Origin: Natronorubrum halalkaliphilum
GTDB lineage: Archaea; Halobacteriota; Halobacteria; Halobacteriales; Natrialbaceae
Assembly (NCBI RefSeq): GCF_009834785.1
Contig: NZ_WUYX01000069.1
Coordinates: forward strand, 145,697 to 209,696
Length of the DNA: 64,000 nt
Direction of reading: 5' to 3'
Part shown: positions 57,246-60,756 of the stretch, piece after piece
Position numbering within the stretch: position 1 is the first letter of the stretch
Layout: each line of letters begins with the position of its first letter
The notes under the pieces: generated by a model
The model's database searches: none
The model's input: only the letters and a program-made list of their open reading frames with translations
Told to the model about the DNA's origin: nothing
Made by a program: the position numbers and the translations under genes

Positions 57246-57505
57246 TCGGTCGACCCGTGTTTTCGTCCCCACAGGCTTTGTTAAGCTCTGCCCACAGCCG
57301 GCGGGAGCGCTCGAGACTGATACGGGCTGCTGTCAGCCGGTGCCGGAACGACTGCGAGCAGTCTTGCCATCGCTCCGGGACACGATGGCAGTGAACGGAT
57401 GCGAATTCGGGCTCGCTCGCGGCCGTCACTGCGACGAACGTATCGCGAGCAGCCGAACAATGATATAGCCGGCACACCCAGTACTCGGCAAGACCGCTCG
57501 CTACA

Positions 57506-60268
57506 ATGACGACTCACTACGATCACGCGCAGGTCCAGGAGTTCTGGCAGTACGTCTGGGAGCGCGACGACGTCTACGCGCTGCCGGCGGACGCGACGGA
57601 CCCGACCTACGTGCTGGGCATGTTCCCCTACACGTCGGGAACGCTGCATATGGGACACGTCCGTAACTACGCGATTACGGACGCCTACGCGCGGTACCGC
57701 CGGATGCAAGGTGACGACGTGTTGCATCCGATGGGATGGGACGCGTTCGGCCTGCCGGCCGAGAACGCCGCCTACGAACGGGCGAGCGATCCCGAATCCT
57801 GGACGCAGGCGTGTATTCGGCGCATGCGCGAAGAACTCGAGACCATGGGGTTTGGCTACGACTGGTCTCGAGAGATCACCACCTGCGACCCCTCCTACTA
57901 CCGGTGGAACCAGTGGCTGTTTAAGCGACTCTACGAGGCGGGGCTCGTCGAGTACGAGGGAGCAACGGTCAACTGGTGTCCCGACTGCGAGACCGTCCTC
58001 GCGGCGGCTCAGGTCGAGGAACGCGAAGCCTCGGCGGGAGCGAGCGGCGACGCCCCGAGCCGCGAACCCAAACGCAGTGAGACCTCGAGTCAGGTCACCA
58101 CCGACCGGGTCTGCTGGCGCTGTGAAACACCCGTCGACCGGCGCGAACTCGACCAGTGGTTCTTTTCGATCACTGACTACGCGGAGGAACTCCACGAGGG
58201 ACTCGACGACCTCGAGGGGTGGCCCGACGGCGTCCGCGAGATCCAGCGAAACTGGATCGGTCGACAGGAAGGGGCCAAAATTACGTTCGAGACGGCGGAC
58301 CACGGATCCGTCGACGTCTTCAGCACCCGTCCGGAGACGATCTACGGGGCGACGTCGCTCGTGGTGTCGCCCGGCCACGACCTCGCTCGCACGCTCGCGG
58401 ACGACTCCGAGGCGGTCGCCGACTACATCGACGCCGTCCGCGAACAGGATCCCGACGAGGTCGGCTTTTCGGGCGTCGAGACCGACGCGACGGCGATCCA
58501 TCCGCTGACCGGCGCCGAACTGCCGGTCTACGTCGCGGGCTACGTCCTCGACGACGTCGGCACCGGCGCGGTGATGGGCGTTCCCGGCCACAACGAGCGC
58601 GATCACGAGTTCGCACTCGAGCACGACGTGCCGATCGAACGGGTGATCGAACCGACGGACGGTGACGGTACCGGCGACCTGCCGTACACCGGCGACGGGA
58701 CACTAACCGCGAGCGGCGAGTACGACGGCACCGCGAGCGAGGCCGCTCGAGAGCGGCTCGTCGCCGATCACGGGGCCCTTGAGGAGGACGTCACCTACCG
58801 GCTTCGGGACTGGTTGATCTCCCGACAGCGCTACTGGGGGACGCCGATTCCGGTCGTTCACTGCGACGACTGCGGCCACGTCCTCGTACCCGACGAAGAG
58901 CTCCCGGTCGAGTTGCCGGAGTTCGTTCGCACGACGGGGAACCCGCTCGAGGAACACGATTCGTTCCGCGAGACGACGTGTCCCGACTGCGGCGGGCCCG
59001 CTCGGCGCGAGACGGACACGATGGACACGTTCGTCGACTCCTCGTGGTACTACCTGCGATTCCTCTCGCCGGATCTCGAGGACGCGCCGTTCGATACGGA
59101 ACTCGCCGACGAGTGGCTGCCGATCGACGTCTACGTCGGCGGCGACGAACACGCCATCCTCCACCTGCTCTACACTCGGTTCTTCACGCGCGCGCTCGCC
59201 GACCTGGGGCTGCTCGATCGCCGGGAGCCGATCGAGGAGCTCAGAAGTCAGGGGACGGTACTGTACGACGGGGAGAAAATGTCCAGTTCGAAGGGGAACG
59301 TCGTCGCGCCACAGGAGTACGGCGCGGAGACGACGCGGCTGTTCGTGCTCTCGGCGGCCCACCCCGAACAGGACTTCGAGTGGACCGCGAACAACGTTCG
59401 GGGTGCCTACGACCTCCAGCAAACCCTGTACGGCATGGCGACGGCGTTCGTCGACGAGGGCGATACGCGAGTCGAGCGGCGGAGTCACGACGAGTACGTC
59501 GCCCGGGAGATCGACCGGACGATCGCCGCGGTCACCGAAGAGTACGAGCGGTTCCGGTTCCACCGAGCCGCGACGGAGATTCGGGAACTGGCGCGACTGC
59601 TCCGTCGGTACCGAGGGTACGACCGGCCACACGGCGAACTCTACCGGCGCGGCCTGCTGGCGCTTGCGGCCATGATCTCGCCGATGGCACCCCACCTCGG
59701 CGAGGAATGCTGGAACAAGCTTCGGGGCGACGGGCTGGTCGTCGAAGCCGACTGGCCCGAACCCGAACGCGACGTGGCCGACTATCGGCGAGAGCGCCGA
59801 CTCGTCGAGACGACGCTCGCCGACGTCCGCGACATCGTCGACACCGCCGCAATCGACGAACCGGAACGAATCGAACTCGTCGTCGCCCAGGAGTGGAAGT
59901 ACGAGGTCGCCAGACTGCTTGGCGAGCGACTCGACGACGCGACCGACAGCGTCGAGACCGCGTCGGTCGTCGATCGGGTGCTGGAAGCCGAGCTAGCTGT
60001 TGATCTCGAGTCCAGAGCCGACGCCGAGGCCGAAGCCGAGGTCGACCGCGAAACCATCGCGGCGTTCGCCGCCGAACTGGCCGAACGAGACGGGCATCAG
60101 GATCTCGAGCACGGGCTTACGGCCCGGACCGAACTGGCGATCCTCAATCGGAGCACGTGGCTCGTCACCGACGAGTTCGACGCCGACGTCACCGTTCGGA
60201 GGGGGGCCGAGGACGACGAGCTGGGGGAGAAAGCACGGCCCGGCAAACCGGCGATCCACATCAGTTGA
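57506..60268 (+). CDS. leuS: Leucyl-tRNA synthetase with bacterial-type core
   Basis: 920 residues. Class I motifs: PYTSGTLHMGHVRNY (HMGH at 48-51) and EKMSSSKGNVV (KMSKS, ~590-600). A zinc knuckle (NWCPDCETVL ... CWRCETPV) is followed by the CP1 editing domain (STRPETIYGAT; GTGAVMGVPGHNERDHEFA). An editing domain placed after the zinc knuckle, and these motif spellings, are of bacterial type; archaeal LeuRS has the insertion elsewhere and a different HIGH region. The C-terminal ~200 residues do not look bacterial. This fits the chimeric LeuRS described from Natrialba magadii. Charges tRNA-Leu. Confidence 0.95.
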   Translation: MTTHYDHAQVQEFWQYVWERDDVYALPADATDPTYVLGMFPYTSGTLHMGHVRNYAITDAYARYRRMQGDDVLHPMGWDAFGLPAENAAYERASDPESWTQACIRRMREELETMGFGYDWSREITTCDPSYYRWNQWLFKRLYEAGLVEYEGATVNWCPDCETVLAAAQVEEREASAGASGDAPSREPKRSETSSQVTTDRVCWRCETPVDRRELDQWFFSITDYAEELHEGLDDLEGWPDGVREIQRNWIGRQEGAKITFETADHGSVDVFSTRPETIYGATSLVVSPGHDLARTLADDSEAVADYIDAVREQDPDEVGFSGVETDATAIHPLTGAELPVYVAGYVLDDVGTGAVMGVPGHNERDHEFALEHDVPIERVIEPTDGDGTGDLPYTGDGTLTASGEYDGTASEAARERLVADHGALEEDVTYRLRDWLISRQRYWGTPIPVVHCDDCGHVLVPDEELPVELPEFVRTTGNPLEEHDSFRETTCPDCGGPARRETDTMDTFVDSSWYYLRFLSPDLEDAPFDTELADEWLPIDVYVGGDEHAILHLLYTRFFTRALADLGLLDRREPIEELRSQGTVLYDGEKMSSSKGNVVAPQEYGAETTRLFVLSAAHPEQDFEWTANNVRGAYDLQQTLYGMATAFVDEGDTRVERRSHDEYVAREIDRTIAAVTEEYERFRFHRAATEIRELARLLRRYRGYDRPHGELYRRGLLALAAMISPMAPHLGEECWNKLRGDGLVVEADWPEPERDVADYRRERRLVETTLADVRDIVDTAAIDEPERIELVVAQEWKYEVARLLGERLDDATDSVETASVVDRVLEAELAVDLESRADAEAEAEVDRETIAAFAAELAERDGHQDLEHGLTARTELAILNRSTWLVTDEFDADVTVRRGAEDDELGEKARPGKPAIHIS

Positions 60269-60459: not shown

Positions 60460-60756
60460 ATGACGGAGGGGGACGGTGACAGTGTCGATTCGTGGTGTCA
60501 GAAACCGCCAAGTCAGGCGATTATCGAAGCCGTTGCCGAAGCAGAAGGAGTGAGTCCCGAAGACGTCCATCCACCGACGTACGACGCATTGCACACCGTC
60601 GTCGATCCGCAGGCACTCGATGCCCTCTTCGCCACCCGACCCGACGGCGCACCGCGGGCCGGCGGCGACGTCTCGTTTCTGTACTGTGGCTACGAGGTTA
60701 CGGTCGAACGGGACGGCTCGATCACACTCGAGGAGTCGACCGACCACGCCGAATAG
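60460..60756 (+). CDS. HalOD1 output-domain protein
   Basis: 98 residues, essentially one HalOD1 domain (PF18545): PSQAIIEAVAEAEGVSPEDV, TYDALHTVVDPQALDALFA, VSFLYCGYEVTVERDGSITLE. The domain is a haloarchaeal signal-output module usually found alone or after receiver domains. Its molecular action is unknown. The TATA box and dyad support ATG 60460. A PAS/GAF sensor starts 1.3 kb downstream, though with other genes between. Confidence 0.88.
   Translation: MTEGDGDSVDSWCQKPPSQAIIEAVAEAEGVSPEDVHPPTYDALHTVVDPQALDALFATRPDGAPRAGGDVSFLYCGYEVTVERDGSITLEESTDHAE

Follow-up and report, generated by a model that had tools for sequence, protein, structure and literature searches.

Leucyl-tRNA synthetase (LeuRS) was described by Andam et al. 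(2012; PMC3436685) in three forms, A, B', and B'', with the B types at the base of the bacteria and a separate history left possible for the C-terminus. In their account, B'' never stood alone among 14 genomes. Halobacterial LeuRS2 is reported, in a review citing Fang 2014 (PMC9437257), to show drastically reduced aminoacylation and to keep its affinity for tRNA-Leu. Both the chimera and the paired LeuRS copies are already published (Andam 2012; Fang 2014, cited in review PMC9437257). In the LeuRS of N. gonorrhoeae (NgLeuRS), as described in PMC9424281, Glu169 pairs with a Trp and Arg178 holds the gamma-phosphate of ATP. The NgLeuRS E169G variant activates leucine with 24-fold lower efficiency, transfers it unimpaired (78 versus 52 per s), and still aminoacylates (1.35 versus 5.8 per s).

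Here, we analyze a LeuRS gene in a 64-kb stretch of Natronorubrum halalkaliphilum DNA (the window). What is new is the B'' identity of the window copy, the observation that 132 of 133 genomes with B'' also hold another LeuRS, and a candidate mechanism for the reported weakness.

RESULTS

A bacterial-type core joined to an archaeal C-terminus

A reading of the window made from the sequence alone had recognized a LeuRS gene with a bacterial-type core and had pointed to the chimeric LeuRS enzymes, with bacterial cores and archaeal tRNA-binding parts, of Natrialba magadii, which has two copies. The gene corresponds to an open reading frame at exactly the coordinates given there (Table 1). Its product scored 793.7 bits against the bacterial NCBIfam model TIGR00396 (leuS_bact; cut-off, 548.4 bits), compared to 234 bits against the archaeal model TIGR00395 (leuS_arch), which is under the A-type threshold of 648.5 bits. 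Pfam models identified a class I core, a LeuRS editing domain, and an anticodon-binding domain, and the top PDB match was 2v0c (E = 1.3e-195), which we take to be the T. thermophilus enzyme; E-values of this order rule out chance.

Table 1. Features of the B'' leuS locus in the window (residue numbers are those of the window LeuRS; Ec, E. coli position)
Feature	Coordinates	Strand	Remarks
Block GCCGAACAATGATATAGCCGGC, probable promoter (BRE/TATA-like)	57452..57473	+	Conserved upstream of B''
leuS, LeuRS-B'' (LeuRS2 type)	57506..60268	+	920 aa, ATG start
HIGH motif HMGH, residues 48-51	57647..57658	+	H at both positions in 60/60 B'' rows
Ala168, aligned with Glu169 of the CP1-hairpin latch in E. 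coli and N. gonorrhoeae LeuRS	58007..58009	+
Variable zinc-knuckle linker, residues 171-202	58016..58111	+	Linker length comparison; median dN 0.316
Ile246 (Ec M219)	58241..58243	+	Four residues ahead of the Trp pairing with Glu169
CP1 editing domain, residues 252-428	58259..58789	+	PF13603 match over cut-off, residues 248-419, after the zinc knuckle
CP1 site residues			Thr278 = Ec T252, Asn363 = Ec D342, Asp366 = Ec D345
Priming loop GGDEHA, residues 545-550	59138..59155	+	Asp547 in place of Ec I531
KMSSS, residues 591-595 (KMSSSK, 591-596)	59276..59290	+	Ec K622 = Ser; K kept in 16/60 B'', 70/72 B', and 83/83 bacterial rows
Anticodon-binding domain, residues 641-762	59426..59791	+	PF08264 match at residues 662-779
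Archaeal-type C-terminal domain, residues 763-920, and stop	59792..60268	+	hhalign
HalOD1 protein, downstream neighbor	60460..60756	+	PF18545

Mean identities followed the same division along the protein. Over 60 B'' rows, the core was 54% identical to bacterial and 29% to A-type LeuRS, and CP1 was 38% and 26% identical, respectively. The anticodon-binding domain gave 24% and 22%, and at the C-terminus the order was 20% to bacterial versus 27% to A-type. The C-termini of the B types matched the A-type profile at 99.8% in hhalign (E = 2.6e-29), compared to 0.2% for the bacterial profile, and 39 bacterial records among 65 matched align with the window LeuRS only up to residue 733-802. Judged by these domain affinities, the window gene encodes a catalytic core and CP1 of bacterial type followed by a C-terminal domain of archaeal type; its anticodon-binding domain, almost as close to A-type as to bacterial LeuRS, could be of either origin.

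Domain-by-domain trees agreed with a core lying outside archaeal LeuRS. In the tree built for the core from 16 B'', 16 B', 18 bacterial, and 18 A-type rows, the A-type rows formed a clade of their own (support, 100), set off by a branch of 2.4 changes per column, and therefore the B'' core is not placed inside archaeal LeuRS, the outcome by which the sequence-only reading would have been refuted. The bacteria formed one clade (87), B'' formed one clade that included the window LeuRS (100), and B' would need two changes to do so. The A-type rows were again one clade in the CP1 and anticodon-binding trees (100 and 99). As any two of three groups make up one side of a branch, the core, CP1, and anticodon-binding trees, built without an outer group such as IleRS, show B outside A, not B within the bacteria; the bacterial affinity of the core comes from the identities and TIGR family scores rather than from the trees by themselves.

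The B-type C-terminus grouped with haloarchaeal A-type LeuRS and one further lineage (L184), apart from the other A-type rows, in 981 of 1,000 bootstraps under 6-state recoding. A sister placement to haloarchaeal LeuRS-A had 95/90 in one tree but fell to 197 of 1,000 after the recoding, in which haloarchaeal LeuRS-A and L184 without the B types gained 802 of 1,000, and it was rejected. A three-group C-terminus tree was dropped as a test of this placement because any two among three groups always make up one side of a branch.

The window copy is B'', paired with a B' elsewhere in the genome

A second leuS, which the sequence-only reading had suggested looking for, was found on another contig (C54) of the source genome (4.56 Mb, 72 contigs, 99.8% complete). 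It is 53% identical to the window LeuRS over residues 201-919 and 67% over residues 4-172, has the canonical KMSKS, and is a LeuRS-B' (LeuRS1 type). No LeuRS-A over the TIGR00395 cut-off was present in this genome. The window LeuRS groups with B'' by scores and by trees, which identifies it as B''/LeuRS2, the divergent one of the two paralogues, rather than B', the housekeeping one; the earlier reading had missed both this identity and the KMSKS copy on C54. The B'' label rests on clustering and on a named relative (L189) from Halorhabdus, a genus with B'' according to Andam et al. (2012; PMC3436685), and B'' presumably corresponds to LeuRS2.

At least 133 of 391 Halobacteria genomes carry B'', a count that for part of the genomes rests on identity to the window LeuRS and may miss divergent copies. 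B' or LeuRS-A was also present in 132 of the 133, which broadens the 2012 observation, drawn from 14 genomes, of B'' always having a companion LeuRS. B' accompanied B'' in 108 genomes (65 of the window's family, 41 of other families, and G289 and G381, in which B'' is divergent and fragmented, respectively). B'' was the only B type matched in the other 25, and 24 of these have a LeuRS-A over the cut-off (21 of 22 genomes in one set, plus G137, G246, and G212). Since the partner is LeuRS-A without a matched B' in these 24 genomes, the role of B'' cannot depend specifically on B'. The sole B'' genome without a matched partner (G315) is 89% complete. Outside the Halobacteria, a B-type match at E = 1e-80 was found in 0 of 53 genomes from a 60-genome sample of the phylum, compared to 5 of its 7 Halobacteria.

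Several arrangements of these genes were seen along the way. All three forms occur together in two genomes, G004 and G378. In G004, about 19 kb separates A from B' on a shared contig, and in G378 (C1:1235730-1241561; L285 and L311) a gene for a full-length LeuRS-A immediately precedes B', about 100 nt upstream and in the same orientation. The divergent B-type LeuRS of G289 (L294) carries, by alignment, Ala where Glu169 would be expected; another residue takes the place of one zinc Cys, the priming loop reads GGQEH, and the gene converges with that for B', about 1.9 kb away. In Haladaptatus caseinilyticus, a plasmid of 607 kb carries a B'-type leuS (L269, 4986-7625), with a ParA gene about 4 kb away.

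Surroundings of the gene

Upstream, the minus strand encodes an acidic protein that matches no Pfam family, a short-chain dehydrogenase, and an FkbM methyltransferase; downstream of leuS lie HalOD1, DUF420, an open reading frame without a match, and a PAS/GAF protein. HalOD1 followed leuS at no more than 700 nt, in the same orientation, in 36 of 39 B'' loci of the window's family (f1) and in 0 of 21 other loci. Being confined to this one family, it probably reflects descent, and the neighborhood was set aside as a functional clue. The 22-base block upstream of the gene is similar, not identical, across 12 aligned B'' loci, differs from the block upstream of B', and probably serves as the promoter. 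It has a single genomic copy at up to 3 mismatches, and a regulon was discounted on that account. No sigma-70 promoters were found, and terminator-like sites numbered one, on the minus strand, where 1.5 were expected. ARAGORN found no tRNA-Leu gene in the window; the one tRNA gene there is for Gln.

Residues altered and kept in B''

The alignment comprised 60 B'' rows (a subset of the at least 133 B'' genomes, with 39 of the 60 belonging to the same family as the window), 72 B', 83 bacterial, and 51 A-type rows. There were 21 B''-specific sites at which B' and bacteria agree, compared to 5 B'-specific sites in the reverse test. Among the 114 columns with at least 98% invariance across B' and bacterial rows, B'' departed at four (E169, M219, D342, and D640), compared to 0 of 103 in the reverse control.

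Some trends were apparent. First, the E169 position was Ala in all 60 B'' rows, whereas every B' row (72/72) and every bacterial row (83/83) had Glu; Ala was also found there by motif in six further B'' genomes (G137, G315, G378, G338, G262, and G381). Second, M219 was Ile in 51/60 B'' rows and Met in 71/72 B' and 82/83 bacterial rows. D342 was Asn in 57/60 and D640 was Glu in 60/60 B'' rows. Third, I531 of the priming loop was Asp or Glu in 58/60 B'' rows, compared to I or V in 70/72 B' and 81/83 bacterial rows. Other B''-specific sites are M568 (Thr in 59/60) and 541, which adjoins Tyr540. Fourth, the zinc-knuckle linker, just after E169, was 12 to 59 residues long in the 60 B'' rows; where measured, it had 10 residues in 62 of 70 B' rows and 8 in all 13 bacterial rows. 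An insertion noted earlier in the zinc region, EREASAGASGDAPSREPK, does sit between the two Cys pairs of the knuckle, but these lengths do not bear out its description as a general haloarchaeal segment.

Finally, the second Lys of KMSKS was kept in 16 of 60 B'' rows, with four state changes on the best tree. The HMGH and KMSSSK motifs, and a CP1 following the zinc knuckle, are present as the sequence-only reading stated; KMSSSK, however, is not the bacterial form that it was taken for, since bacterial rows have Lys without exception and Ser is the state of 21/21 haloarchaeal A-type rows. Nor is KMSSS proof of a dead enzyme, a reading dropped because the same Ser occurs in A-type LeuRS and AMSSS occurs in two genomes with a single matched LeuRS. 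The latter are G073 and G044, in which the B'-type LeuRSs of family f8 (L087 and L090) have lost both Lys of KMSKS; without a second B-type or LeuRS-A match in either genome, they appear to be the sole LeuRS. Retention of K622 seemed tied to a LeuRS-A partner (11/15 with versus 5/44 without), a link that a comparison of independent pairs did not bear out (8 pairs, on starred branches; median p, 1).

Most of the remaining machinery is intact. Y43, H49, H52, D80, R418, F493, Y499, Y527, E532, H533, and H537 were kept in 60/60 B'' rows, so that the leucine-pocket and transfer residues examined are conserved. The latch partners Trp223, Tyr540 (the E. coli place of Tyr554), and Arg178 were each present in 60/60. 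At the editing site, T252 was retained in 59/60 and D345 in 58/60.

Selection on B'' and B'

Rates were compared in 15 genomes with both genes (105 pairs). B'' is under purifying selection: median dN/dS was 0.21, compared to 0.14 for B', and dN was higher in B'' than in B' in 105/105 pairs. The core was the slowest B'' domain, with a median dN of 0.054 versus 0.037 for B', followed by the anticodon-binding domain (0.124 versus 0.131), CP1 (0.17 versus 0.114), and the C-terminus (0.332 versus 0.101). These rates suit a gene retained for catalysis with looser contacts to tRNA and do not suit one in decay.

DISCUSSION

From the chimera, the pairing, the purifying selection, and the residue pattern, we infer what B'' may do. 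Our favored reading, which we hold with moderate confidence, is that B'' is an auxiliary LeuRS with a weakened activation latch, kept beside a complete LeuRS (here, B'). B'' would be slow in forming leucyl-adenylate because of changes to the latch by which the CP1 hairpin is closed over leucine and ATP: Glu169 is replaced by Ala; Met219, near the partner Trp223, by Ile; the priming loop gains an acidic residue; the zinc-knuckle linker is lengthened; and, in most members, the second Lys of KMSKS is lost. The enzyme would still bind leucine and tRNA-Leu, transfer the leucyl group, and carry out post-transfer editing. The simplest reading of the residues is a loss of strength at the activation step that spares transfer, tRNA binding, and editing. 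The role of such an enzyme would most likely be that of a low-turnover, condition-specific LeuRS whose output is set by leucine level or an inhibitor, and not that of the supplier of bulk translation.

Loss of Glu169 may be the cause of the weakness reported for LeuRS2. The effect of E169A is borrowed from that of E169G, a variant that still aminoacylates, and so the change predicts slowness, not inactivity. Our searches of the literature on haloarchaeal LeuRS showed, among the results listed, no account of the B''-specific residues, and among the listed results for E169 and leucyl-tRNA synthetase, only PMC9424281 concerns LeuRS catalysis. The residue pattern translates the reported weakness into a handful of changes that can be tested, beginning with Glu169. 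Some observations speak against a weakened latch. An eroded KMSKS is tolerated in haloarchaeal A-type LeuRS and in the two genomes in which only a B' type was matched, the strong constraint on the core equally fits an ordinary working LeuRS, and a C-terminal dN about 3 times that of B' is awkward with full tRNA affinity. The AlphaFold model of B'' is poor (mean pLDDT, 64) and gives the latch geometry no structural support.

It is also conceivable, if rather doubtful, that B'' is no longer a translation enzyme and acts as a leucine/tRNA-Leu-binding regulator or a non-ribosomal leucyl donor with its latch permanently loosened. If this were true, B'' would be a protein always found beside a working LeuRS, of bacterial or archaeal type, across the Haloarchaea.

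Another reading is that B'' is a resistant isoform comparable to the AgnB2 enzyme of Agrobacterium radiobacter K84, with slower catalysis as the price of insensitivity to a natural LeuRS inhibitor; the presence of another LeuRS in all but one B'' genome would suit this. Thr replaces Pro44 just before HIGH in 59/60 B'' rows, a change associated with resistance in AgnB2 (PMC5059758), and the KMSKS Lys is lost in 44/60. However, Thr44 also occurs in 35/72 B' rows, the site of AgnB2 A102 is Cys in every aligned B' and B'' row, and AgnB2 Q573 and Q413 are absent from B''. AgnB2, one of the 83 bacterial rows, retains Glu169, and the seven neighbors examined gave no sign of an antibiotic cluster. We consider resistance an unlikely explanation.

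Equally improbable, in our judgment, is that B'' is an ordinary second translation LeuRS whose differences are post-duplication drift. The constraint on its core and the retention of nearly all examined active-site residues would be expected of such an enzyme, but drift sits poorly with four columns invariant in B' and bacteria being altered in nearly all B'' rows with none in the reverse control, with B'' being the sole LeuRS found in just one, incomplete, genome of 133, and with the low aminoacylation reported for LeuRS2 (PMC9437257). A B'' serving mainly as a trans-editing factor that clears mischarged tRNA-Leu is very unlikely: T252 and D345 are retained and tRNA affinity with little charging is reported (PMC9437257), but the synthetic core, needless for an editing factor, is the most constrained part, D342 is mostly Asn, CP1 evolves faster than in B', and E. 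coli LeuRS is reported to edit mainly in cis (PMC9023258).

How the weakened-latch LeuRS proposed here stands among described enzymes can be seen by comparison. A canonical bacterial LeuRS differs from the window LeuRS in its C-terminal domain, in Glu169 (Ala168 in the window), and in KMSKS (KMSSS). NgLeuRS E169G has lost the same CP1-hairpin Glu169 (PMC9424281), but by an engineered single change, compared to Ala plus further changes in B''. AgnB2 is, like B'', a second LeuRS with residues altered near HIGH and in KMSKS (PMC5059758); unlike B'', it keeps Glu169 and has agrocin genes of pAgK84 as neighbors, and of its residues T42, A102, Q573, and Q413, only the Thr is common to the window LeuRS. 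LeuRS-I of Sulfolobaceae, as described by Weitzel et al. (2020, via PMC9437257), is likewise auxiliary, binds tRNA-Leu without charging it, and has a divergent C-terminus, but its CP1 is disrupted (PMC9437257), whereas B'' keeps T252 and D345 nearly throughout and a PF13603 match over the cut-off. The LeuRS-B' on C54 shares the chimeric architecture and, unlike B'', retains Glu169, I531, KMSKS, and a short zinc-knuckle linker. The closest likeness is to LeuRS-B'' of Andam et al. (2012; PMC3436685) and LeuRS2 of Natrialba magadii, the latter known by description, not sequence; each is likewise a bacterial-type second copy beside B', and no defining feature given for them differs from the window LeuRS, which has the bacterial-type core, the place in the B'' clade, the archaeal C-terminus, and a partner LeuRS, the B' on C54.
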